64,000 nt of DNA, from the NCBI RefSeq assembly GCF_001620265.1, contig NZ_CP012664.1:62001-126000 (forward strand), given 5' to 3'. The notes under the pieces were generated by a model, which worked only from the letters and a program-made list of their open reading frames with translations, was not told where the DNA came from and did no database searches. This document shows, piece after piece, positions 2,746 through 56,937 of the stretch (position 1 is its first letter; every line of letters begins with the position of its first letter). The DNA is from Frigidibacter mobilis. GTDB lineage: Bacteria; Pseudomonadota; Alphaproteobacteria; Rhodobacterales; Rhodobacteraceae. Both the position numbers and the translations under genes were made by a program.

Positions 2746-4206
2746 ATGCGCGAAAAAGTACTTGATTGGTTTGGCTTTGGCGCTGGCGGACACAGCTTCG
2801 CCGGGCACGGTCACAGCCAAGGCGGTCACGGTCATGGCGCGCATGGTCATGACCATGGCGACGGTGGGCATGGCCACACCCATGGCGTCATCGACCCGAT
2901 GATCGCGACTACGTCGCGGGGTATTTGGGCGATCAAATGGTCGTTTGTGCTGCTGGCCCTGACGGCCGCGGCGCAGCTTGTCATCGTGGTCTTGTCGGGG
3001 AGTGTGGCGCTGCTTGCAGACACGATCCACAACGTCGGCGATGCGGTCACTGCCATCCCTCTTTGGCTCGCGTTCATGCTGGCGCGTCGCAAACCGTCGC
3101 GCACCTTTACATACGGCCTCGGCCGGGTCGAGGATATCGCCGGGCTGTTCATCGTCGCCATCATTCTGTTTTCGGCTCTGGTTGCCGGCTATCAGTCGAT
3201 CAACCGGTTGATCAATCCGGAACCCATCTCCCATCTGGGATGGGTTTTCGTCGCGGGGCTGATCGGCTTTGTCGGAAACGAGGTGGTGGCCGTCTTCCGC
3301 ATCCGCGTCGGACGCGAGATCAGCAGTGCCGCCCTGATCGCCGATGGCTACCATGCGCGCACCGACGGGTTCACCAGCCTTGCCGTCGTTCTCGGTGCGA
3401 TCGGTGTCTGGGCAGGTTTCCCGCTTGCCGATCCGATTGTCGGATTGCTGATCACCCTCGCCATCTTCGGCATCGTCTGGCAATCGGCCCGGGCCGTACT
3501 GACGCGGATGCTCGACGGGGTAGAGCCGGACATTCTGGACGAAATCGACCATGCCGCCGAGCATGTTTCCGGCGTGATCGGGGTACATGGGGTGCAAGCA
3601 CGCTGGTTGGGGCACAAGCTCTATGCCGAACTCTCGGTGCACCTGGACGAAACGGTCACCGTCGCTGAGGCGCAGACCATTGTGGCGGCGATGAAGGCAG
3701 AGCTTTTCGCCCATCTTCCCGTGCTGGCGCAAGTCAGCATTCGGATCGAGGCGCCTGCAAAGACAGAGGTTGCGACAAAGCCGCACCGACACGACCATCC
3801 TGATCACGGGCACCCCCACAGCCACGCGCATCCGCATGGCGCCGATCATAGACATCACGACGACGCAAAGGACCATGACCACCACCACGCCCCCGACCCG
3901 TTTCAGGTGAACTGCGCCCTGGCGGACGGCGTGTTGGAAATCGTGGATACGCCGCAAGGCGAACGGATGCGGCTGACCATCGCACGCCACGCCGAAGACC
4001 TGACCGCTATGGTGGTCATCGAACGATCCACAGGCCCCGAGACGTTGTTCCTGATGCCCGAGGCAGGCGATCATCATCGACTGCAAAGCACGGATGCACC
4101 GGCCGAACCGCACGAGTTCAACGCCCGCCTCATCCTGCAGGCCAATGGCAAATCGCTTGACCTGCCGTTCCGCATGACCGAACCGGAGGGCCACGGCGCG
4201 CATTGA
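2746..4206 (+). CDS. dmeF: CDF metal-cation efflux protein, DmeF-like, with extra C-terminal domain
   Basis: This inner-membrane cation diffusion facilitator probably exports Co/Ni (or Zn) from the cytoplasm in exchange for protons. The N-terminus (residues about 15-47) is His-rich (GHGHSQGGHGHGAHGHDHG). Transmembrane helices 2 and 5 carry the HxxxD metal sites His95/Asp99 (ADTIHNVGDA) and His203/Asp207 (GYHARTDG). A CDF cytoplasmic domain follows to about residue 345. Unusually, a second His-rich linker (about 348-383) then leads to a further domain of about 100 residues without His clusters. At 486 residues the protein is longer than usual DmeF. It follows dmeR by 7 bp and is probably co-transcribed. 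Confidence 0.88.
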   Translation: MREKVLDWFGFGAGGHSFAGHGHSQGGHGHGAHGHDHGDGGHGHTHGVIDPMIATTSRGIWAIKWSFVLLALTAAAQLVIVVLSGSVALLADTIHNVGDAVTAIPLWLAFMLARRKPSRTFTYGLGRVEDIAGLFIVAIILFSALVAGYQSINRLINPEPISHLGWVFVAGLIGFVGNEVVAVFRIRVGREISSAALIADGYHARTDGFTSLAVVLGAIGVWAGFPLADPIVGLLITLAIFGIVWQSARAVLTRMLDGVEPDILDEIDHAAEHVSGVIGVHGVQARWLGHKLYAELSVHLDETVTVAEAQTIVAAMKAELFAHLPVLAQVSIRIEAPAKTEVATKPHRHDHPDHGHPHSHAHPHGADHRHHDDAKDHDHHHAPDPFQVNCALADGVLEIVDTPQGERMRLTIARHAEDLTAMVVIERSTGPETLFLMPEAGDHHRLQSTDAPAEPHEFNARLILQANGKSLDLPFRMTEPEGHGAH

Positions 4207-21627: not shown

Positions 21628-21726
21628 CGCCGAACGGTCAACTGCCGGGCTCTTTGAAGCAAATCACAAACCTGACAGACCGCAGACCCTTGATCCCTGA
21701 TTGCAGCGTCTCCACTAACGTGCACT

Positions 21727-21978
21727 GTAAGCGCGACGACGTTGCCCTATGCGGCGAGGCTTGACGGTTGCTTGTATCGCCATGGCATGAGGTCTTCGAT
21801 GCCGCTTTGCGGGTGGCCGTCGAGGATCGCGCGGAGGGTGGCCGCGATATAGTCGATCGGGTTGACGCCGGACATCTTGCAGGTGGCGACCAGCGAGGCG
21901 AGCATGGCCCAGTTCTCGGCTCCGACCTCGTTGCCTGCGAAGAGCGCGTTTTTCCGCGTCAGGGCAATCGGTCTGATT
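21727..21978 (-). mobile_element. IS66 right-end fragment (252 bp)
   Basis: The sequence equals the right-terminal 252 bp of the IS66 element, including the GTAAGCGCGACGACG end at 21727 and the last 77 or so codons of tnpC. It stops at GTCTGATT, where a second, full copy begins. The rest of this disrupted copy is not found on the far side. Confidence 0.92.
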
Positions 21979-21998
21979 GTAAGCGCGACGACGTTGCC

Positions 21999-23557
21999 CT
22001 ATGCGGCGAGGCTTGACGGTTGCTTGTATCGCCATGGCATGAGGTCTTCGATGCCGCTTTGCGGGTGGCCGTCGAGGATCGCGCGGAGGGTGGCCGCGAT
22101 ATAGTCGATCGGGTTGACGCCGGACATCTTGCAGGTGGCGACCAGCGAGGCGAGCATGGCCCAGTTCTCGGCTCCGACCTCGTTGCCTGCGAAGAGCGCG
22201 TTTTTCCGCGTCAGGGCAATCGGTCTGATTTGATTTTCGACGGGGTTGGTGTCGAGCTCGAGGGTGCCGTCGTCAAGGAAGCGGATCAGGCCGGGCCAGT
22301 GCGCGAGGGTGTAGCGGATGTCCTCGGCCAGCTGGGATTTCTGCGGGATGCGCGAGAGCTGGGCTTCCAGCCACGGCTTGAGCGCGGCGATGATCGGGGC
22401 TGCGTTTTCGCGCCGGGCGGCCAGACGGACGGCTGCATCCTGGCCACGCACGGTTTTCTCGATCTGATAGAGCAGCGCGATCTGGCGCAGCATCTCCTCG
22501 GCGATGGGGAGCGGTCGCTCTCGAAGCGTTTCACGAAGCGGCGGCGGACGTGGGTCCAGCAGTAGACCAGCCGCCATGGGCCACCGTCACGCTCGATTTC
22601 CGTCAGCGCGTTGTAGGACTGGTAGGCGTCGCATTGCAGGAACCGGCCGCGGTATCCGACGAGGAACTTCAGCGGATGTTCTTTGCCCGGCCGGGGCGTA
22701 GTGGAACAACACGATGGGCGGATCGGCACCGCCATGGCCGCGATCGTCGGACACGACGGCCCAGAAGAAGCCGCTCTTGGTGGCCTTGCGGCCTGGGTCC
22801 AGCACCGGCGCGCGGGTTTCATCGACAAAGATGCGGTCCGCTCCGCGCAGATGGGCTTTCATGTGATTGATGATCGGCATCAGGTGGAAACAGGCGCGCC
22901 CGACCCAGTTGCCGAGCGTGCCGCGATCGAGGTCTATCCCCTGCCGCTTGAAGATCTCCGCCTGGCGGTAGAACGGAAGGTGGTCCCCGAACTTCGAGAC
23001 GATGATCCAAGCAATGAACAGCTCCGTGGGCAGCCCGCCGGGCACGACATGCTCGGGGCGTGCGCCTGCGCCACGGCTTGCGAGCAGCGGCGGCAGGCGT
23101 ATCTGGGCCGCCGCGTGACCAGCACCCGGAACTGCGCGGGATCACGTCCAGCCGCTCGGAAACGTCCTCGCCGATCCTTGCCATCTCGCCGCAGCCGCAG
23201 GGACAGAGCGTGCTGGCGGGCTCGATCACCCGCTCGACCCGGGGCAGATGCGGGGGAGATGCCCGCGGTTGCGTGCCGGCTTGCGGGGCGTCTCCCCCGG
23301 GCCCTTTGCAGTGCCGCCTCTGCCTTTTCCTGTGCGGCCTCAAGCACGCCCTGGGCCAGTTCGGCATCCTCGAGCGGCAGGTTGAACTGGTCCGGCGACA
23401 GCTTCTCCGAACGCTTGCCGAACTTCTCGCGCTGCGCCGCGTGCAGGATATCCTGCAGCCGCCGGTTGGCCTCTTGCGTCTCGGCCAGCGTCGCCTCCAC
23501 CTCGGCGAGGCGGGCCTTCAGCAGAGCGTTTTCACGCGCAAGATCAGCGGTTTCCAT
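21999..23557 (-). pseudogene. tnpC: IS66 TnpC transposase, frameshifted
   Basis: The gene starts METADLARENALLK at 23557 and ends KQPSSLAA at 21999. Frame changes occur near 23295, 23150, 23060, 22690 and 22510, at G/C runs. Domains are an N-terminal coiled-coil, a zinc finger, the DDE core (VDETRAPVLD, CDAYQSYN, PVENQIRP) and the IS66 C-terminal domain. The copies measure 1558, 1559, 1556 and 1557 nt in A-D, so no two share the same length. Confidence 0.85.
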
Positions 23558-23981: not shown

Positions 23982-24454
23982 GATGCCGCAGCCCGTGCCG
24001 CCCGGATCGCTCGCGTCAACTGGCCCTCATCGGCACCAGCGCCAGCACGGATCACGACATCACCGACGACAATTTCGAGATCGGGCCCCGTTTCGAGATC
24101 GGGCCCCGTGACAGCCGCCGGTGCCTCGGCCGAATTGTCATCGACCACCAATTCCGCGAAGACCGGCAAGACTGCCACGTTCCCGGGCACCACGAGATTG
24201 CCTTTGCGAAGCTGCTTGCGCCAATCGTAGATCTGCCAGCGGGTCGTGCCGTGCCGGCGCGCAACCTCGGCGACCGTCACCCCGGGCATCATGCTCTCCG
24301 CCGCGATCCGCGCCCGCTCCGCCTTGTTGCGCCGACGCCGCCCGCTCGGACCCTCGATCACGTCCAGCCGGGAAACCTCAAAAACCGTCGAGCCGTCCAA
24401 ATGGACGCCCATTTTGCCGTCTCTTGCCAAATCCAAACCCTCCGCCACGCACAT
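23978..24454 (-). CDS. tnpA: IS66 TnpA, intact
   Basis: This is a 158-residue accessory protein with a Hin-like helix-turn-helix (GVTVAEVARRHGTTRWQIYD) at about residues 54-80. A tandem GPDLET-GPDLEI marks an 18-bp duplication present in every copy here. It is identical in layout to 47903-48379. Confidence 0.92.
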   Translation of the reverse strand: MCVAEGLDLARDGKMGVHLDGSTVFEVSRLDVIEGPSGRRRRNKAERARIAAESMMPGVTVAEVARRHGTTRWQIYDWRKQLRKGNLVVPGNVAVLPVFAELVVDDNSAEAPAAVTGPDLETGPDLEIVVGDVVIRAGAGADEGQLTRAIRAARAAAS

Positions 24455-24513
24455 GTGCGCAGAATGGCCCGATCAGGTCAGCAATGGCAGGAGGTGGTCG
24501 GCGTGGCGCTTAC

Positions 24514-25018
24514 GATGCGCAAAGGCTTTCTCTATCTGGTCGCCATCATGGACTGGTTCACCCGCAAGGTGCTGGCCTGGCGGATATCGAACACGCTGGA
24601 GGCCGAGTTCTGCATCGAGGCGCTGAACGAGGCCATCCACAAGTTCGGCCCGCCCGAGATAATGAACACGGACCAAGGATCACAGTTCACGTCCTTCGAC
24701 TGGACCGACCGTTTGAAGCGGGCAAAGACCAAGATCTCGATGGACGGCAAAGCCCGGTATCTCGACAACATCTTCATCGAGCGCCTTTGGCGGTCCCTCA
24801 AATATGAATGCGTCTATCTGCACGCCTGGGAAACAGGGTCACAGGCCCGGACTGGCGTCGGACGCTGGATCACCTTCTACAACCACCAGCGGCCCCATGC
24901 CGCCCATAGCGGTCAACCGCCCGCCGTGGTCTACTTCAACAGCATTGAAACCGGCCAGCAGATGCAGGAAGTAGCTTAAACCACCCCGGAAACTGTCCGA
25001 ACATCGGGGAGTAGCTCA
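24514..25018 (+). mobile_element. IS3-family remnant, 3' half of OrfB
   Basis: From the IS66 end to 24979 the plus strand encodes the integrase core of an IS3-type transposase: the first Asp in VAIMDWFTRKVLAW, the second in NTDQGSQFTS and the Glu in FIERLWRSLKYE, then FYNHQRPHAAHSG. OrfA and the OrfB N-terminus are missing. The non-coding tail with TGTCCGAACATCGGGGAGTA probably includes the right end. It was probably cut by the IS66 next to it. Confidence 0.88.
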
Positions 25019-25055
25019 CCATGACGCCGACCTCGTCGCCCGCATCAAGACCCAG

Positions 25056-25664
25056 TCACCGCGGTAGCAACCGGCCGGTTACCATCTCCTTGTAGACGTT
25101 GCGGCGCATCATCACCGTCTCAACCACGGGAAACCGAGCGATCGCTACTTCGATCAAGGCGGCATCCGCGCGCGTGGCTTTCGGGTCAACCATGTTCAGA
25201 ACGACATGGTGGCGCGGCAAGCTCGCCGGGTTGTCGACGCGCGCGCGCAATCTTTCGAACCAGTCGGCAGTCTGCGCGCCGACGTCGAGATCAGAGGTCG
25301 ACAGCATGACCGGCGTCACGATGTGATCGGCCAGAACGGCGATCCCGTCCGACCATTCCGCACCGACGCCTGCCGTGTCGATGAAGACGAAATCCGCCGA
25401 GTCCGCATCATAGACCTGCTCGATCTTGCGATCGACGGCCCCCACACTCTCGACCGAGATTGACCGCAGCAGAGGCGACCCCAGACCCGCCGCTTCAGCT
25501 CGTTCGTGCCAGGCGCCAAGCACTCCGGTGCTATCAGTGTCGATCAGCAGAACCCGACGCCCGGCAGCCACGGCAGCGCTGATCAGGGCGCGAGAGAGCG
25601 TGGTTTTGCCGCTCCCCCCTTTCCGGGCCATCGCGGCGATGACCACGAGATTGTCGTTGGGCAT
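25056..25664 (-). CDS. parA: ParA-family partition ATPase
   Basis: The 202-residue product (MPNDNLVVIAAMARKGGSGK at its start) has the deviant Walker A KGGSGKTT, Walker A-prime VLLIDTDSTG and Walker B DFVFIDTAGVG. Small ParA proteins partition plasmids or position cargo. ParB is not obvious; the 21-bp array immediately upstream could be the centromere-like site. The start at 25664 follows GCCTGCGCC without a strong ribosome site; longer in-frame starts exist. Its 3' side meets the IS3 remnant. Confidence 0.85.
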   Translation of the reverse strand: MPNDNLVVIAAMARKGGSGKTTLSRALISAAVAAGRRVLLIDTDSTGVLGAWHERAEAAGLGSPLLRSISVESVGAVDRKIEQVYDADSADFVFIDTAGVGAEWSDGIAVLADHIVTPVMLSTSDLDVGAQTADWFERLRARVDNPASLPRHHVVLNMVDPKATRADAALIEVAIARFPVVETVMMRRNVYKEMVTGRLLPR

Positions 25665-25895
25665 GGGGCGCAGGCCTCCTGCAAAAATAGTGAAACGCGA
25701 CAAAGATGCAATAATGTCGCTAACCTCTTGGTGCATCGGCGTCAAGCGGAAGGCGGGATGCACGATGCGGTGGGCAGGATGCATTCGCCGTTACGAATTT
25801 TGCAGCAACCAGACAGCGGGGCGCAGGGGACAGACGCCGCGATCCAGGTTGCGCGATGCGGTTGCCAGAAGACGCACTGCATTCCGCAATCTCCA

Positions 25896-26084
25896 AAGGA
25901 CGTAAAGCGCAGAACGCGACGCGGGGTGCACGCAACGCCGTGCATGAAGCGCGATGCGTGCTGCAATCGACACGGCCCACTTGCCCGAAGACGCGCTGCA
26001 GAGCGCAAAAGACACGGTGCATAAGACGTGATGCACGGTGCAGGGAACGCGGGACGCGTTGCATTGAGCGCGTTGCGCGCTGCA
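25896..26084. repeat. Nine imperfect 21-bp tandem periods between parA and mobC
   Basis: On the minus strand units begin TGCA followed by a CGCG-rich body; successive units start at 26084, 26063, 26042, 26021 and 26000, and less well conserved ones continue to 25916. Examples: TGCAGCGCGCAACGCGCTCA, TGCAACGCGTCCCGCGTTCC, TGCACCGTGCATCACGTCTT (each plus one base). Another pair of TGCA blocks exactly 21 bp apart lies at 25759 and 25780. Position in front of parA and mobC suggests a partition site or relaxosome binding region. The 556-bp stretch 25665-26220 holds no gene I can support. Confidence 0.75.
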
Positions 26085-26100
26085 TTTGACAAAGGACGTC

Positions 26101-26123
26101 AAATCGGCCCCCCGGGCCGATTT
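26101..26123. terminator. Symmetric GC-rich hairpin
   Basis: AAATCGGCCC-CCC-GGGCCGATTT is a perfect 10-bp stem with A-tract and T-tract on the two sides, so it could terminate transcription in either direction. It separates the 21-bp array from the oriT-like stem-loop. Confidence 0.75.
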
Positions 26124-26133
26124 TCTATATTGA

Positions 26134-26186
26134 GTACAAGCCCTTAATGCCTTCTCCGCTTGTGCTGGGAGAAGGCGGGCTTGTAC
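26134..26186. other. Nested stem-loop, candidate oriT or nic-region inverted repeat
   Basis: An outer 10-bp perfect stem GTACAAGCCC...GGGCTTGTAC encloses an inner 9-bp stem GCCTTCTCC...GGAGAAGGC with loop GCTTGTGCT. It lies 35 bp before the mobC ATG. oriT sites typically lie beside the relaxosome genes and have such inverted repeats, but no nick consensus is assigned here. A mobC operator is an alternative. Confidence 0.6.
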
Positions 26187-26220
26187 GAAGGTGGCAAGAA
26201 ATAGGAACGTTAACTTCAAA

Positions 26221-26805
26221 ATGTCACGCGGCCGAAGACTGACCGAAACAGACCGTCTGAGCATCGCCAAAGAGCGTGCGCAGGGCGTCGCTGCTGCTGA
26301 TCTGGCCCAGCGGTATGGGGTCAGCCTGAAGACGATCTACAATGCCGTGAACCACGCTCTGGACCGGCAAAACGCGAATGGTAGCCGGCCGATCGTCATT
26401 GGTCTGCGGGTCAGCCGACGTGAGTTGGCCGCGTTTGATGCCGCACTTGCCCGTCATGGCATCACCAATCGCACAGATGCCTTGCGCCATTTGGTGTTGG
26501 CTGCTGATGAAATCCTGGAGCCCGATCACGCGTTGACCGAGGCCCTTTCTGCTCGGGCGGCCGACATCAGCCGTATCGGCAACAACATCAATCAGGTGGC
26601 ACGGCGGCTGAACGAAGCCAGGCTGAAGGGCCAGCCTTTGTCCTACACTGCGGAAAGCCACGGGCATATTCGCGAATTCGCAGGGCTGATCCTCGATCTG
26701 ACTGATCGCTTGCAGGCGCTTCTCTTGAAGCGTCGTGCCGATCTGGCGCTCAAGGTCACAAAGGCATGGGCCCCGCTCGTCCCGGATCGGCTAAAGCGTG
26801 GGTAA
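26221..26805 (+). CDS. mobC: MobC-like relaxosome accessory protein
   Basis: This 194-residue protein has an N-terminal Hin-like helix-turn-helix (LAQRYGVSLKTIYNAVNHAL) and a C-terminal MobC region with RIGNNINQVARRLNEARL. MobC proteins help open oriT for the relaxase. ATG 26221 is preferred to GTG 26191, which is close to the stem-loop. The stop overlaps the GTG of the relaxase, so translation is probably coupled. Confidence 0.85.
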   Translation: MSRGRRLTETDRLSIAKERAQGVAAADLAQRYGVSLKTIYNAVNHALDRQNANGSRPIVIGLRVSRRELAAFDAALARHGITNRTDALRHLVLAADEILEPDHALTEALSARAADISRIGNNINQVARRLNEARLKGQPLSYTAESHGHIREFAGLILDLTDRLQALLLKRRADLALKVTKAWAPLVPDRLKRG

Positions 26806-29149
26806 GCGCCTTGCCCACGGTGTCGGGCCTGCCCTCTTCGATCGCGACTGGAGCCGGGTCTCCGGCAGCTGGCAGGGACTCGCCAGGAACGCGCAGATGG
26901 TGCGCGCGGCGCGGGGCTATTCCCCGGCCATCTTCAAGCCGATCTCGAAGGGCGGGTGCCACACCGGCGCGCAGCTGAAGGCCCAGCTGACGTATCTTAC
27001 CACCAAGTCGAGCCACATCCTCGATAGCCGCGGTACCCATGACGGCAAGAAGACCCTGACCGAGGCGGAGATCGACCGGGTCGTGCGCCGATTTGAAAAC
27101 CAGTGGGGCGAGCGGCACAGCCCGAAGCTCGGCCATACCTCGCATCTGCTGATGGCCTTTCCCGTCGGCACCAGCGGTGAGGAGGTGCGCGCGATCACCG
27201 AGACGGTCTGTGAGCGGTTCTTTCAAGGTGAGGGGTCGCAATTCGACTATATTGCTGCAATACACCAAGATCGCGCGCATCCACATGCGCATATCGTTCT
27301 GAACCGCCGCAGCAAGGATGGCGAAATGTTCTTTCTCGGGAAGGATCACCACTTCAACTACGACGCCTTTCGGGCGGCGATGGTCGCCGCGGCGCAGGTC
27401 CACGGGATCCGGCTCGAGGCGACACGGCGTCTTGACCGGGGGGTGACGACCTACCGCGCCGAGATCGATGAGGTCTACAAGGCTCGTGACGAGGGCCGGC
27501 CGCCGGTCGAGCGCCAGCGCACAGGCGCTGATCTCGCCGCAGCCCTGCAGACGGTGGCGCGCAACGCGCTGACCTATCGGGGTCTGGCTGCCGAGGCGTC
27601 CCGGTCAAACTTCGATGACGTGGCCGAGGCCCTTGAGCGGGCCAACACCATCCTTGCCAGTGGCGGTCAGGTCCAATCTGACGGAGCCATCTATATGTCC
27701 CAAGACGAAACGGCGTTTGACACGCTGATCACCGAGTTCTCTCAAAACATCCGCCAGATCGAGGCCGCGATCGACCGCGCGCCCGCGTCCGAGCGGCCGG
27801 AGATCGAGCGCAAGCTCACCGATGTTCTGGCCTCTGTCGCGCATCTCAACCCACTCGGGGATCAATCGGCCGCGCTGCTTGATGCGCCGTCCCGCGACGG
27901 CGTCTATGCGCGCGCCAATATGCGCGAAGACCAACTCGAACGCCTCGACGAGGGGGATGTGAAGGCACGGCTTACGGAGGCGCTGCAGGGCACGGGCATC
28001 GATCCGGAGGCCGTCGCGGCCCGCATGCGGGAGGGTGCTGGCAATGCAGCCCTCGAGCGCCAGTGGCTGGCACAGGATCTGCGCGCCATCGCCACGGCGG
28101 GCGACCTCGATCTGGAGAAGGGCGAGGATCGCGAGGAACCGCTGGACCGGCTGGAAGCCGTTCACGTCCGCCTGAGCGATACTCTGACCGATGCGCGCAT
28201 CTTGCGGGCGGTCGACAATGTCGATGAGGCGGAGGATGCCGAGGTCTCGCTCGCCGAACGTCTGACGCCACTGGGCCGCAATCTCGACGACGCGGGACCG
28301 GACGCCTTCGCCCCGTCCGAGCGGCAGGACTTCCAGCAGCTGGTCGCCCAGTTCCGACGGACAGATTTCACCTACCCGTTCTCAGACGACCCTTCCGTGC
28401 GCAGGGCGGGTGCTGTCGAAGTGGAAGAAGCCCGCGCCGCCTTCAACGCCTATGCACAGCGATCGCCTGATCATGCCGAACTGGCCGCGATGGCCTGGAA
28501 CAAGATCACCGACAGCCGCAAGCCCGAGGAGTTCGCCGTCGAGGAGAAGGATCGCAGGCTCCATGCCGGCGATATGGACCTTGCCATGCGCGATCCTTCG
28601 CAACATCTCGGTCCGATCACCGAAGATGACCGCACCCTCGCGCGCTACCGCGCGGAAATGCCCGACGAAGAATTCGGGACGGCGGTGCAGGATGAGATCA
28701 ACCGGCTGCGCGCCGCCGGGGCATCGCGCGCCTATATCAGTGAGCGTAGTTTCGACATCGAGGACCAGGCGCGGCAAGACTATGCCGAGCGGCGCTTCAT
28801 GGCTGAGACCGCCCCTGATGTGTTGACCTTCCTGCAGCGGGCCGAGGCCGAGAATGGCACAGCTCTCTCCGAAACAGCCGGGCAGCGCCTGATCGAGCAG
28901 GTCGACAGAAACCTCGCGCCAAACGCGGTCACCGCCCTGCGCGCCGGCCATGCAGATGTGCTGGACAAGTTCACCGAACATCCGCTGCGGCAGCTGGAGC
29001 TCGCGAAGGCCTATCTGGAGAGCAGTGAGGTGACCGCCCATGGACCGGCCATGGAGCGGGTTCTGGATGCCTTGGCCGAGGAACAGATCGAGGCACAGCG
29101 CGCCCGCCATGCCGCGGCCCATGGCGAAAAGGGGATCACCCATGGATAA
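26798..29149 (+). CDS. VirD2-type relaxase/mobilization nuclease
   Basis: This 783-residue protein has an N-terminal relaxase domain: a candidate catalytic Tyr region (QLTYLTTKSSHILD) and the 3-His motif HQDRAHPHAHIVLN. It should nick one strand at oriT and stay covalently bound during transfer. The long C-terminal half is acidic and helical with repeated AEDAE/EERL-like segments and no recognised enzymatic motif. GTG 26798 overlaps the mobC stop; the end overlaps the coupling-protein start (ATGGATAA). Confidence 0.88.
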   Translation: MGKRLAHGVGPALFDRDWSRVSGSWQGLARNAQMVRAARGYSPAIFKPISKGGCHTGAQLKAQLTYLTTKSSHILDSRGTHDGKKTLTEAEIDRVVRRFENQWGERHSPKLGHTSHLLMAFPVGTSGEEVRAITETVCERFFQGEGSQFDYIAAIHQDRAHPHAHIVLNRRSKDGEMFFLGKDHHFNYDAFRAAMVAAAQVHGIRLEATRRLDRGVTTYRAEIDEVYKARDEGRPPVERQRTGADLAAALQTVARNALTYRGLAAEASRSNFDDVAEALERANTILASGGQVQSDGAIYMSQDETAFDTLITEFSQNIRQIEAAIDRAPASERPEIERKLTDVLASVAHLNPLGDQSAALLDAPSRDGVYARANMREDQLERLDEGDVKARLTEALQGTGIDPEAVAARMREGAGNAALERQWLAQDLRAIATAGDLDLEKGEDREEPLDRLEAVHVRLSDTLTDARILRAVDNVDEAEDAEVSLAERLTPLGRNLDDAGPDAFAPSERQDFQQLVAQFRRTDFTYPFSDDPSVRRAGAVEVEEARAAFNAYAQRSPDHAELAAMAWNKITDSRKPEEFAVEEKDRRLHAGDMDLAMRDPSQHLGPITEDDRTLARYRAEMPDEEFGTAVQDEINRLRAAGASRAYISERSFDIEDQARQDYAERRFMAETAPDVLTFLQRAEAENGTALSETAGQRLIEQVDRNLAPNAVTALRAGHADVLDKFTEHPLRQLELAKAYLESSEVTAHGPAMERVLDALAEEQIEAQRARHAAAHGEKGITHG

Positions 29150-31124
29150 GGGCAAGATCGCGGGCGGGATCCTCAGCATGACACTGGTCGGCCTCGCCAT
29201 CGGCTATGTCGTGGCGACAGCCTATCTGATCCTGCGCAATGGGCTGTCGACCGAGCGCATCGATTTCACATTGCTCGCGCGGGAATACCGCGCGCTTGGG
29301 ACCACCGCCCCGAAGGATTTCCTTTGGGTGAACCTGATCCTGGGCGGTTTTGGGTTAGCAGCACTGTTGCTCAGCGTCACGCTTCTGGGCGAGGCGCTGA
29401 CCCGGTTCGGCACGACACATTGGCAGACCAAAGCAGAGATGAAGCGCAACGGCTTTTTTGCCAAACCGGGCGGTGGGTTCCTGTTGGGCAAGCTTGGCCG
29501 CCCGAAATCGAAGCGCCCGTTTCTCGTGTCCAAGACCTTCCCGCATGCGCTGATTGTGGCACCAACGGGCCGAGGCAAGGGCGTGGGCTTCGTGATCCCG
29601 AACCTTCTGACCTATAAAGGCTCGGCCGTGGTGCTCGACGTAAAGGGCGAGAACTTCCGCGAAACCTCGCGCTTCCGCGCCAGTATGGGCGACAAGGTGT
29701 TCCGCTTCGCGCCCACTGACTGGGATCGGCCAACACACCGGTACAACCCTCTCGCGCGCATCGCGGCCATGACCAATCCCGACCGGCAGCAGATGGAGTT
29801 GAAGCTGACCGCAAAGCTCTTCCTGCAGACCGACAACGAAAAGCTGAGCGGGCTTCTGGCCGGGGGCATCGACCTCTTCGTGGCGGCTGGCCTTCTGGCC
29901 TTCGAACGCGGGGTGCCGACCATCGGCGAAATCTACCGGATCACCGCCTCGGGTGGAGACAAGCAGAAAGAATACCTCAAGCGCGCGCAAGAGGTGAAGA
30001 ACAAGTCGGCCAAGCTGATCTTCGAGCGCATGGCCTCGACCAACAACGACACCCTGACCTCCTACCTGTCGCTCCTGATGACTTCGGGTCTCGACACCTG
30101 GGACAACCGTGCGATCGACGCGGCCACCGCGACCTCGGATTTCTCCTTCCGGGACATCCGGCGTCGCCCCCACGCGATCTATCTCGTGGTCGAGTCCGAG
30201 ATGATCCGCCCCCTGGCCCCGCTGATCCGGCTGTTCTTCTCCGACCTGATCGCCTCGCTGCAGGCGCAGGAGCCGGGCGATGACGAGCCTTGGCCCGTGA
30301 TGATCATGCTCGACGAGTTCGACCGGCTCGGCAAGATGCCGATCGTGGCCGAGAGCATCAAGACGCTGCGCTCCTTCGGTGGCAACCTCGCCATCGTCAC
30401 CCAGACCATCCCGGCATTGGACGAGATCTATGGCGAGAACACCCGCCGCTCGCTGCAGGGTGGCGCGGGCGTGAAGCTCTACCTCACCCCGTCCGAGCAG
30501 AAGACCATCGAGGAGCTGAGTCAGGCTGTAGGCAAGACCACCAAGCGCGTGATCACCCGCTCCCGCGCTGTCGGGCGTAACCCATTCGAGGGACGTAGTG
30601 TTTCCGAGCGGACCGAGGATACGCCGCTGCTGACCGAGGACCAGGCCCGACGGATGGACCTCGATGAGGTGATCCTCGTGATCGATGCGCAGATGCCGAT
30701 CCGGGCGCGGCGGATCAAGTATTTCGAGGACCCGATACTCAAGGTGCTGCATGCCGGGCAGGCGGGGAGTTTCCCTTATCCAGATGAAGATGGTCTGCGG
30801 CGGGATCGGCAGATGTCCGAGACACGCGAGACCGTGGAGAAGCTGAAGCAGGAACTGCAGGCGGTTAGGGCTGCTGCGGGAGCGCAGGGGTCTGGGACTG
30901 CGCCCTCGTCGATGACCGTTGAGCCACCTGCAACGGAGACGCAGGATCCGCAGCCAGCGCCATCAGGTCGGGCGCGAGGTAAAGCCGCTCGTGCAGCAGC
31001 GGGTGGCGGTGGGTTAGGTCAGTTGTCGTTCGATCTGGCTGGACTCGGGATCAGAGGGGCGAACAGGTCAGAGTTGGCGGCAGCTGTTCAGACGACGCGG
31101 TCGATCATCGAAGTTCATGGATGA
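29142..31124 (+). CDS. virD4: VirD4/TraG type IV coupling protein
   Basis: This 660-residue ATPase has two N-terminal membrane helices (MTLVGLAIGYVVATAYLIL; WVNLILGGFGLAALLLSVTL), Walker A APTGRGKG at about residue 139 and Walker B VMIMLDEFDRLGK, followed by TQTIPALDEIYGENTRRSLQ. It recruits the relaxase-DNA complex to a type IV secretion channel. No channel genes occur in the window, so the element is either mobilizable or its channel genes lie elsewhere. The Ala/Gly/Pro-rich tail is low complexity. Confidence 0.92.
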   Translation: MDKGKIAGGILSMTLVGLAIGYVVATAYLILRNGLSTERIDFTLLAREYRALGTTAPKDFLWVNLILGGFGLAALLLSVTLLGEALTRFGTTHWQTKAEMKRNGFFAKPGGGFLLGKLGRPKSKRPFLVSKTFPHALIVAPTGRGKGVGFVIPNLLTYKGSAVVLDVKGENFRETSRFRASMGDKVFRFAPTDWDRPTHRYNPLARIAAMTNPDRQQMELKLTAKLFLQTDNEKLSGLLAGGIDLFVAAGLLAFERGVPTIGEIYRITASGGDKQKEYLKRAQEVKNKSAKLIFERMASTNNDTLTSYLSLLMTSGLDTWDNRAIDAATATSDFSFRDIRRRPHAIYLVVESEMIRPLAPLIRLFFSDLIASLQAQEPGDDEPWPVMIMLDEFDRLGKMPIVAESIKTLRSFGGNLAIVTQTIPALDEIYGENTRRSLQGGAGVKLYLTPSEQKTIEELSQAVGKTTKRVITRSRAVGRNPFEGRSVSERTEDTPLLTEDQARRMDLDEVILVIDAQMPIRARRIKYFEDPILKVLHAGQAGSFPYPDEDGLRRDRQMSETRETVEKLKQELQAVRAAAGAQGSGTAPSSMTVEPPATETQDPQPAPSGRARGKAARAAAGGGGLGQLSFDLAGLGIRGANRSELAAAVQTTRSIIEVHG

Positions 31125-31839: not shown

Positions 31840-33411
31840 ATGAACACGCTTTCACGCCGCGGCTTTCTTGCCGCAAGTGCTGCCGCAATTGGCGCTGCAC
31901 AAATGCCCCGTCTTGCCTTCGCGCAGTCGGCGGCACCGATCAGCCTCGCCGCCGCGACCCGGACCCTCGATATCGACGGGCGCGCGGCAACGGTCTTTGG
32001 CCTTGCCGGCCCCGGCGGTCAGGGGCTGACCTTTGATCCCGGCCAGAGGTTCCGGGTCGATCTGACCAACGATCTCGATGTCGGCACCATCATCCACTGG
32101 CACGGCCAGATCCCGCCGAATGCGCAGGACGGCGTGCCGGACATGCCGATGCCCCTTCTCGCACCGGGTGAGACCCGATCCTACGACTTCGAGGCCCGGC
32201 CGGGCACCCACTGGATGCACAGCCATGTGCCCACGCAGGAGATGCAGCTGCTCGCCGCGCCGCTGATCGTGCGTTCGCAGGAGGACCTGGCTGCCGACCG
32301 GCAGGAGGTTGTGATGTTCCTGCATGACTTCTCCTTCAAGGCCCCCGAGGAGGTTCTGGCGGAGATCAGCGGTGGCCATGGAGGCGGACACGGCGCAGGC
32401 CATGGTGCCGGTGCGGAGCCCGAGCAAAGCGCTTCCATGGGAGGCATGGGGGCGATGCAGGGCATGGATCACGGGGCCATGGGCCATGGCGCCACGGGCG
32501 GCATGCCGATGGGCAACATGCCCGGCATGGGCGGGATGATGGGCATGAGCGGGATGATGGGCATGGGCGGCCAGATGGGCGGCATGGCCATGGACCTGAA
32601 CGACTATGACTGGGACGCCTATCTCGCCAACGACCGGACGCTGTCGGACCCCGAGGTGGTGCAGGTCGAGCGCGGCGGGCGCATCCAGCTCCGGGTAATC
32701 AACGCCGCCGCGGCGACGGTGTTCTGGATCGAAACCGGCGGTGCCGAGGCGCGGCTGGTCGCGGTGGACGGGCACGCCGTCCAGCCTGTTGCGGGCACCC
32801 GGTTCGGGCTGGCGATGGGCCAGCGGTTGGACATCGAGATCGACCTGCCGAACGAGGGCGGCGCCTGGCCGATCCTCGCCCTGCGCGAAGGCGCGCGAGA
32901 GCGCACCGGCCTGATCCTCGCTACGCAGGGAGCCGAGGTCCGGCGCCTCGATGCCGTTGCGGAGGCCGCAGCACCCGCGTTTGACACCGATCTTGCGCAG
33001 GAGGCGCGCCTCATCGCCCGCGATCCCCTGCCGGATCGGCAGGTGGACCGCAGCCAGATGCTGATGCTGGGCGGCTCGATGCAGCCCTATCTCTGGACGA
33101 TCAACGGCGCAGTCTGGGGCCAGCACCAGCCGATCATCGCGCGCAGCGGCGAACGAGTCGTGCTTTCGTTCCACAACATGTCGATGATGGCCCACCCGAT
33201 GCATCTGCACGGGCATGTGTTCCAGGTCGTCGGCCTGAACGGGCGGCGTGTTGCCGGTGCCCTGCGCGACACGGTTCACGTTCCGCCGATGTCGATGGTC
33301 GATGTCGCGCTGGACGCCGGGGAGGCCGCGCGCTGGATGCTCCACTGCCATCACATGCCGCACCTCGCGACCGGCATGATGACCGAGTTCGCGGTCACGG
33401 CGTCGGTCTGA
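31840..33411 (+). CDS. Tat-exported multicopper oxidase with Met/His-rich insert
   Basis: This 523-residue periplasmic oxidase probably oxidises Cu(I) to Cu(II) (CueO/CopA class). A twin-Arg signal is visible (LSRRGFLAASAAAIG). Copper sites: HWHGQ and HWMHSHV in the first cupredoxin domain, HPMHLHGHVF and LHCHHMPHLATGMM at the C-terminus. Between domains 1 and 2 an insert rich in Gly, Met and His (residues about 180-245) probably captures Cu(I). A preceding ATG at 31804 would mask the Tat signal, so 31840 with GAGGAGACGA upstream is chosen. Confidence 0.92.
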   Translation: MNTLSRRGFLAASAAAIGAAQMPRLAFAQSAAPISLAAATRTLDIDGRAATVFGLAGPGGQGLTFDPGQRFRVDLTNDLDVGTIIHWHGQIPPNAQDGVPDMPMPLLAPGETRSYDFEARPGTHWMHSHVPTQEMQLLAAPLIVRSQEDLAADRQEVVMFLHDFSFKAPEEVLAEISGGHGGGHGAGHGAGAEPEQSASMGGMGAMQGMDHGAMGHGATGGMPMGNMPGMGGMMGMSGMMGMGGQMGGMAMDLNDYDWDAYLANDRTLSDPEVVQVERGGRIQLRVINAAAATVFWIETGGAEARLVAVDGHAVQPVAGTRFGLAMGQRLDIEIDLPNEGGAWPILALREGARERTGLILATQGAEVRRLDAVAEAAAPAFDTDLAQEARLIARDPLPDRQVDRSQMLMLGGSMQPYLWTINGAVWGQHQPIIARSGERVVLSFHNMSMMAHPMHLHGHVFQVVGLNGRRVAGALRDTVHVPPMSMVDVALDAGEAARWMLHCHHMPHLATGMMTEFAVTASV

Positions 33412-47902: not shown

Positions 47903-48379
47903 ATGTGCGTGGCGGAGGGTTTGGATTTGGCAAGAGACGGCAAAATGGGCGTCCATTTGGACGGCTCGACGGTTTTTGAGGTTTCCCGGCTGGACGTGAT
48001 CGAGGGTCCGAGCGGGCGGCGTCGGCGCAACAAGGCGGAGCGGGCGCGGATCGCGGCGGAGAGCATGATGCCCGGGGTGACGGTCGCCGAGGTTGCGCGC
48101 CGGCACGGCACGACCCGCTGGCAGATCTACGATTGGCGCAAGCAGCTTCGCAAAGGCAATCTCGTGGTGCCCGGGAACGTGGCAGTCTTGCCGGTCTTCG
48201 CGGAATTGGTGGTCGATGACAATTCGGCCGAGGCACCGGCGGCTGTCACGGGGCCCGATCTCGAAACGGGGCCCGATCTCGAAATTGTCGTCGGTGATGT
48301 CGTGATCCGTGCTGGCGCTGGTGCCGATGAGGGCCAGTTGACGCGAGCGATCCGGGCGGCACGGGCTGCGGCATCGTGA
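47903..48379 (+). CDS. tnpA: IS66 TnpA, intact
   Basis: This complete 158-residue TnpA (MCVAEGLDLARDGKMGVHLD start) lies 59 bp inside the left end. The helix-turn-helix is at about residues 56-80 and the GPDLET-GPDLEI tandem near residue 123. Same sequence as 23978-24454. Confidence 0.92.
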   Translation: MCVAEGLDLARDGKMGVHLDGSTVFEVSRLDVIEGPSGRRRRNKAERARIAAESMMPGVTVAEVARRHGTTRWQIYDWRKQLRKGNLVVPGNVAVLPVFAELVVDDNSAEAPAAVTGPDLETGPDLEIVVGDVVIRAGAGADEGQLTRAIRAARAAAS

Positions 48380-56466: not shown

Positions 56467-56937
56467 GATGCCGCAGCCCGTGCCGCCCGGATCGCTCGCG
56501 TCAACTGGCCCTCATCGGCACCAGCGCCAGCACGGATCACGACATCACCGACGACAATTTCGAGATCGGGCCCGTTTCGAGATCGGGCCCGTGACAGCCG
56601 CCGGTGCCTCGGCCGAATTGTCATCGACCACCAATTCCGCGAAGACCGGCAAGACTGCCACGTTCCCGGGCACCACGAGATTGCCTTTGCGAAGCTGCTT
56701 GCGCCAATCGTAGATCTGCCAGCGGGTCGTGCCGTGCCGGCGCGCAACCTCGGCGACCGTCACCCCGGGCATCATGCTCTCCGCCGCGATCCGCGCCCGC
56801 TCCGCCTTGTTGCGCCGACGCCGCCCGCTCGGACCCTCGATCACGTCCAGCCGGGAAACCTCAAAAACCGTCGAGCCGTCCAAATGGACGCCCATTTTGC
56901 CGTCTCTTGCCAAATCCAAACCCTCCGCCACGCACAT
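56463..56937 (-). pseudogene. tnpA: IS66 TnpA, two contractions
   Basis: 475 nt against 477 nt. Both lost bases are in the tandem GGGCCCC runs near 56572 and 56590; the part between them is out of frame (PISKRARSRN). Confidence 0.85.

Follow-up and report, generated by a model that had tools for sequence, protein, structure and literature searches.

ParA-type ATPases coupled to DNA transfer are already known, VirC1 of Agrobacterium and StbB of plasmid R388 among them. In Agrobacterium, overdrive is bound by VirC1, which works together with VirC2 and recruits the relaxosome to the cell pole and to VirD4 (PMC4949242, PMC4285021). In R388, StbA acts on direct repeats by oriT (the stbDRs), with StbB operons in the leading region; StbB is a ParA-like ATPase required for transfer when StbA is present, and the repeats affect both stability and transfer (PMC3098194). 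The partition proteins of NAH7 act on conjugation and on the oriT region (PMC12421886). In the partition system of pSM19035, every 7-bp repeat is bound by one dimer of omega (ParB), and ParA is fully activated only when four or more repeats follow one another directly (PMC9499535).

Here, we analyzed a 64,000-nucleotide stretch of Frigidibacter mobilis DNA (the window) that carries, from left to right, a cut-short ParA gene on the minus strand, an array of 7-bp repeats, a candidate oriT, mobC, and the genes of a relaxase (VirD2-like) and of a coupling protein (VirD4-type). This locus resembles the VirC1/VirC2-overdrive system of Agrobacterium in its VirC1-type ParA ATPase (followed in relatives by a VirC2-like gene), its VirD2-like relaxase and the position of the site beside a transfer origin, and 8-bp arrays accompany five of six VirC1-type loci beside virD1; it differs in its 7-bp step, its 52 units and a VirC2-like protein too diverged for Pfam. 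It shares with the delta/omega parS of pSM19035 contiguous, non-palindromic 7-bp repeats beside a ParA gene, but omega sites comprise 7–10 WATCACW heptads in mixed orientation, as opposed to 52 YGnnnnn units in one orientation beside a candidate oriT. Like the stbDRs of R388, the repeats lie by a (here candidate) oriT, presumably in the leading region, and upstream of an operon for a ParA-like ATPase; the stbDRs, however, form two sets, each with five 9-bp repeats that are 2 bp apart (an 11-bp period, against 7 here), and the R388 order stbA-stbB-stbC puts the DNA-binding protein before the ATPase, whereas in relatives of our locus the VirC2-like gene follows it. The likeness to the parS/oriT-binding proteins of NAH7 is that partition proteins act on conjugation; NAH7 uses ParB and a KorA-like ParR, and the excerpts describe no period-7 array there (PMC12421886).

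Within titles, abstract openings and passages of the open-licence papers that our searches listed, we found no description of a long, spacing-locked 7-bp array at such an oriT. An earlier note on this DNA had proposed a coupling of partition and mobilization as the novelty, but such coupling of ParA to conjugation has precedents; what appears to be new is the long, spacing-locked array with one held base per unit, whose letters vary between lineages and whose period rarely does. Proteins with which the plasmid positions and transfers itself probably dock along this array.

Gene neighborhood and candidate origin of transfer

Judged from its nearest matches, the window is most likely plasmid DNA. 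The ParA gene (25056..25664, minus strand) encodes a VirC1-like ParA-family ATPase that matches PF07015 at 56.3 bits (cut-off 24; the scan used a longer open reading frame, 25056–25784), while it stays below the cut-off of the NCBIfam VirC1 equivalog NF010423 (56.9 bits, cut-off 313) and below the threshold of the NCBIfam ParA_partition equivalog. The gene is cut short: DNA similarity to relatives ends at 25082, with 25040–25082 matching other plasmids (H21, H22), and the protein has 202 codons, compared to 239 in most relatives. Residues 1–200 are 97.5% identical to the ParA of locus L001, with divergence after about residue 194. A transposase-like frame (24251..24979, plus strand), presumably of the IS3/rve type, lies near the end of the similarity.

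Among 95 loci with ParA, 88 extend at least 650 bases beyond it; a strict motif identified a VirC2-like frame in 72 of these, and a profile built from 17 proteins found it in all the rest but one, so that a VirC2-like gene accompanies ParA in 87 of the 88, the exception being the window's own locus. Neither this gene nor the remainder of ParA was found elsewhere in the 64-kb window. The ParA gene without a visible ParB, to which the earlier note had drawn attention, is thus explained by a ParA frame that departs near residue 194 and by the missing VirC2-like gene, which relatives possess. On another contig of the same genome (C2; the window is on C4), a second, apparently complete locus (L068, L104) encodes a 239-codon ParA (82% identity) and a VirC2-like protein beside a YG array, and could supply proteins to the damaged module.

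To the right of the array, the candidate oriT comprises a perfect inverted repeat with 10-bp arms (26101..26123) and nested inverted repeats at 26134..26186 (26134–26143/26177–26186 and 26149–26157/26168–26176), the region having been aligned across 14 loci. These are followed by a strongly conserved 25-base block (26193..26217, plus strand), which is our candidate nic region; when up to six changes were allowed, 93 of 154 sequences examined contained it, 78 of these 93 without any change. We take this block to resemble a T-DNA border. Relative to the nic-like block, the array is found on the TGGC side and the Ti overdrive presumably on the opposite one; if nicking follows the polarity of T-DNA borders, the array would be on the leading side, as for Stb.

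The MobC-type relaxosome protein (26191..26805, plus strand; a later ATG at 26221 is a possible alternative start) combines an N-terminal helix-turn-helix (HTH) with a NikA-like/MobC region and matches PF05713 above its cut-off (30.5 bits), PF13384 (23.2 bits, cut-off 24.6) and PF21983 both remaining sub-threshold. The relaxase (26798..29149, plus strand) meets the cut-off of PF03432 (48.6 bits), but not that of the VirD2 equivalog NF010437 (77 bits, cut-off 623), and the VirD4/TraG-type coupling protein (29040..31124, plus strand) matches PF02534 at 277 bits. The distance from the end of the best-scoring array block to the mobC match is 93 bases in the window and likewise in 40 of the 62 loci on genome contigs. 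A promoter scan of 25600–26260 revealed no sigma-70-like site and two terminator-like stems, one of them the inverted repeat at 26101–26123.

Other repeats were noted in the window. A 252-bp stretch is present in two perfect tandem copies (21726–22230), in a region that looks to us like an IS66-type transposase. One 17–18-bp unit is doubled at 24073–24109, 48248–48284 and 56558–56592, inverted at one of these places; the three sites are perhaps copies of one transposable element. Finally, methionine-rich 18-bp repeats occur at 32524–32570 within an open reading frame that is presumably multicopper-oxidase-like.

A conserved, spacing-locked heptad array

The array consists of 52 contiguous heptads in a single orientation (25735..26098), read as YGnnnnn on the minus, ParA-coding strand. 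Position 1 is C or T, position 2 is G and position 3 is mostly C, T or G; G occupies position 2 in 51 of the 52 units and YG starts 50 of them, a count with a binomial P of about 2e-35 at the window's own YG rate of 0.177. The array reaches a heptad score of 46, compared to best scores elsewhere in the window of 5 on the minus strand (array masked) and 6 on the plus strand.

In a column test of periods 2–49, period 7 was by far the strongest (z 36.2), followed by its multiples 14–49; the next other period, 17, reached 0.77, and period 11 scored −0.53. The earlier note had described a 21-bp periodic array at 25732..26084. Its periodicity is real, in that identity at lag 21 over these positions is 0.458, compared to 0.274 in dinucleotide shuffles, of which 0/2000 reached the observed value. 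Lags 7, 14, 42 and 63 are about as high (0.43–0.46; 0/2000 each) and lags 20 and 22 are low. Across the whole array, 21-bp order on top of the 7-bp register was not significant (234/2000 heptad shuffles); in the 18 heptads at the oriT-proximal end it was marginal (lag 21, 42/2000; lag 42, 19/2000). The period test and the heptad shuffles thus reject 21 bp as the repeat unit: the repeat measures 7 bp, the array extends further than had been described, and the 21 bp read as two helical turns are three heptads. The individual TGCA starts listed in the note (26084, 26063, 26042, 26021 and 26000) are present on the minus strand, and the further TGCA pair spaced by 21 bp is also real, its minus-strand starts being 25783 and 25762. 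A repeat array at the DNA level, upstream of a ParA-type gene and adjoining relaxosome genes and a candidate oriT, is supported, and "centromere-like" is a fair description of it.

The array is also kept beside related parA-mobC pairs. A run of YG heptads scoring 16 or more occurs on the strand opposite mobC in 67 of 67 loci (66 around MobC relatives plus the window), although many of these are near-duplicates and two runs are short (L004, 16 heptads; L005, at a contig end). Among 16 arrays compared without gaps (pairs 15–75% different; 5140 heptad comparisons), heptad positions 1–7 were changed at 0.40, 0.012, 0.45, 0.58, 0.62, 0.53 and 0.61 of sites, and position 1 was C or T in 97%. With position 2 changed at 1.2% of sites and the others at 40–62%, a single base per heptad is held while most others drift.

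Irregular members of the set were seen as well. In L016 and L018 (about 3551–3908), a one-base phase slip splits the array into blocks of 28 and 23 units, and run coordinates suggest the same slip in many relatives. On Pukyongiella p4 (L004, 2582–2693), 16 heptads and mobC lie beside a Tn3-type element, and no ParA was found in the locus, which is perhaps a remnant of the module.

Step sizes beside more distant ParA genes

Of 394 family genomes searched with ParA, 291 matched at E 0.001, most of them weakly. Among the best 30 of the 291 (L072–L101, with L072 the window's own locus), the strongest of periods 5–12 was 7 in 30/30. These best 30 include 11 loci with only 32–44% ParA identity; all 11 have a period-7 array, built from other letters in six motif groups (among the motifs ACGnnAC, nnanATS, RACAnnn, ACAnnnA and CRYACCG) and ending 4–218 bp before ParA.

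We further compared 21 named plasmid regions, hand-picked for diversity, in 17 of which ParA/VirC1 is transcribed divergently from whichever gene takes the place of mobC/virD1 (annotated as mobC, virD1, VirD1/MobC family, helix-turn-helix, transposase or hypothetical). The period was 7 in nine of these 17 and 8 in five, each of which exceeded the best of 20 shuffles; it was 12 in L141, and L142 and L149 had none. Inside the positive arrays z was 8.9–28.6, while outside them it reached at most 6.5 across the 17 loci. In the four regions without the divergent layout (L148, L150, L151, L153) there was no 7- or 8-bp array; a weak period 9 was seen in L151 (6.0, shuffle maximum 5.3) and L153 (5.2, shuffle maximum 4.8). 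L142, on Phaeobacter piscinae pP36_f, has the layout of ParA, VirC2-like protein and relaxase, yet no periodic array, and in L149 VirC1-VirC2 adjoin VirD1 without an array.

Of six VirC1-type loci beside virD1, five have period 8. L102, a true VirC1/VirC2/VirD1 locus (PF07015, E 7e-79; PF07181, E 6e-18; VirD1, E 3e-19; VirC2 crystal structure 2RH3, E 2e-15), carries a 26-unit period-8 array. In L102 and L144–L147, virD1 and the array are separated by a stretch with a TATATCCTGC core, which we take to be the VirD2 border core. In a tree of 36 ParA proteins, in which L115, L135, L141, L142 and L153 sit on long branches, the periods were clustered, with three changes for period 7 and two for period 8 (0/500 shuffles as low).

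Most loci of a broader PF07015 set (30 loci; 28 without own-genome copies) had no 7- or 8-bp array: the period was 7 in L115, 8 in L102 and, weakly, L121, and 11 in L106, and in the remaining 24 z did not exceed 8.3 for any of the periods tried (4, 5, 7, 8, 10, 11 and 13). Upstream of ParA in L106, L110, L121 and L127 we noted periods of 11, 10, 8 and 10, some of them weak; given such periods in other ParA families, short-step arrays may be common beside ParA genes. In L115 (2073–2190), the ParA of another alphaproteobacterial family is accompanied by 14 heptads in perfect step around GAC-n-GTT, and the locus has no mobC match. A MobC search of 385 genomes of the class gave four matches including the window's own; none of the other three (L069–L071) had a YG array, L071 being a VirC1 locus with period 8. 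PF07181, searched in 17 genomes of the family of G148, was found in G148 itself only. Finally, the array-ParA module occurs on eight plasmids that PLSDB types as non-mobilizable (L133, L134, L135, L137, L140 and L144–L146), seven of which have an annotated relaxase beside it.

These comparisons bear on the possibility that the array is a classical partition centromere only, on which ParA and the VirC2-like protein would segregate the plasmid, with no part in conjugation and with the proximity of oriT reflecting modular packing. It is usual for parABS systems to have repeats upstream of ParA, periods of 8, 10 or 11 also precede ParA in some other loci of the class, and the non-mobilizable plasmids make up 8 of the 17 named ones, the adjoining relaxase genes notwithstanding. 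We nevertheless consider this explanation unlikely: a period of 7 or 8 characterizes 14 of the 17 loci with the ParA-array-mobC/virD1 arrangement and 0 of 4 without it, and the window's ParA is VirC1-like.

It is more improbable that the array is a strict homolog of the Ti overdrive enhancer, as the VirC1-type ATPase, VirC2-like partner and VirD2-like relaxase, together with the 8-bp arrays adjoining the TATATCCTGC core in five VirC1-type loci, might otherwise suggest. Its tens of units contrast with an element given in the literature as 24 bp (minimal) to 83 bp, and VirC1-named loci of p42a, Bradyrhizobium and Mesorhizobium have no array beside virC1. In addition, overdrive and the array presumably flank the nic core on opposite sides.

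Candidate binders and a proposed role

The earlier note had suggested that MobC binds the array, and MobC coating the array through its N-terminal HTH would accord with the near-threshold PF13384 match, with mobC being encoded next door and with the array remnant in L004, which retains MobC and no ParA. We compared heptad matrices with protein distances in 31 hand-picked period-7 loci (a 32-locus set minus L072 and L097, plus L152). The matrices correlated with ParA at 0.62, with the VirC2-like protein at 0.58 and with MobC at 0.52. Given MobC, partial rank correlations were 0.41 for ParA (0/1000 permutations) and 0.28 for the VirC2-like protein (3/1000); given ParA, they were −0.11 for MobC (860/1000 permutations as high) and −0.02 for the VirC2-like protein; given the VirC2-like protein, ParA retained 0.29 (1/1000). 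An earlier tracking had used 25 of the 32 loci, the rest lacking a recognized VirC2-like frame or MobC coordinates, and compared to it the 31-locus tracking weakens the VirC2-like protein relative to ParA.

Individual loci also speak against MobC. The MobC proteins of L100 and L101 are about 45% identical to the window's, yet their motif differs; L074–L076 keep YG with MobC at 47–49% and ParA at 90–92% identity; and in L096 a period-7 array lies beside a MobC without an HTH family up to E 1. As far as such comparisons can indicate a binder, MobC as the main one is not supported and the motif follows ParA, so that we regard a MobC coat as very improbable. The partial correlations indicate the ParA side of the locus, and not the VirC2-like protein in particular; moreover, as ParA is nearer the array than MobC, plain co-inheritance could yield the same correlation.

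That the array is no binding array at all, but a hidden repeat protein, an RNA leader or a product of chance composition, is hardly credible. In its favor, all three minus-strand frames are open over much of the array. Against it, a coding heptad repeat is rejected because neither 7 nor 14 is divisible by three and the signal at these two lags is roughly equal to that at lag 21, a known RNA is rejected by the lack of any Rfam match at gathering score, no shuffle reached the periodicity of the array, and conservation is mostly confined to one base per heptad. The three overlapping open reading frames (one per frame, 25720–26270) are no evidence of a gene, as TGA is rare under the YG register.

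Returning to a docking track, we suggest that its binder is probably the VirC2-like protein, a choice based on the family of this protein and not on the correlations. Nine VirC2-like proteins scanned matched neither Pfam VirC2 nor a ribbon-helix-helix family, and a search of solved structures with one of them and with their profile gave no credible match. Alignment of their profile to a VirC2 profile, in turn, yielded an hhalign probability of 88.8% (P 2.5e-6), compared to only 56% against a single VirC2, and the VirC2 profile matched crystal structure 2RH3 at 5e-39. VirC2 reportedly has a ribbon-helix-helix fold (Lu 2009), and by analogy the VirC2-like proteins may share it.

We consider it rather probable that the array offers many docking sites to a VirC1(ParA)/VirC2-like module linked to oriT, in which the VirC2-like protein would coat the DNA and the ATPase would position the plasmid and aid relaxosome loading. 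One VirC2-like chain might occupy each heptad, with two ribbon-helix-helix halves in the single chain; unequal halves would explain why all units have the same orientation. With a 7-bp step, the protein might wrap round the DNA as a helix in which three units span two turns. Once coated, the track, with its roughly 50 units, would stimulate or capture the ParA/VirC1 ATPase, which in turn may position the plasmid and help to load the relaxosome at the neighboring oriT, some 100 bp from the track, onto the VirD4/T4SS. Such a track would work like overdrive, the stbDRs or the omega heptads. Against this proposal stand L142, which has ParA and a VirC2-like protein and no array, the period of 12 in L141 and the absence of an array from L149, as well as most other PF07015-matching ParA loci in the class, which have no 7- or 8-bp array, and the position of the array, presumably across the nic-like block from where overdrive would be.

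More tentatively, and with some doubt on our side, the locus may exemplify a class of ruler arrays at oriT that keep their spacing and little of their sequence, with 7 bp beside VirC1-like ParA on Rhodobacterales plasmids and 8 bp beside true VirC1/VirC2. They would be read by a protein with tandem ribbon-helix-helix units in one chain, which would form a helical filament over tens of repeats, and the overdrive of Ti plasmids would have derived from such an array as a small version of it.

VirC1 and VirC2 have so far been seen as helpers of T-DNA transfer around a short overdrive, while their relatives on many alphaproteobacterial plasmids carry long arrays right beside the candidate oriT. With their locked 7- or 8-bp step, these arrays offer clean substrates for studying the link that a ParA-type ATPase makes between conjugation and the positioning of a plasmid. 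A protein that recognizes roughly a single base in each unit, yet insists on the spacing, would be an instructive case of DNA recognition. The array also provides a sequence signature for finding oriT and such modules, several of them on plasmids that PLSDB types as non-mobilizable.
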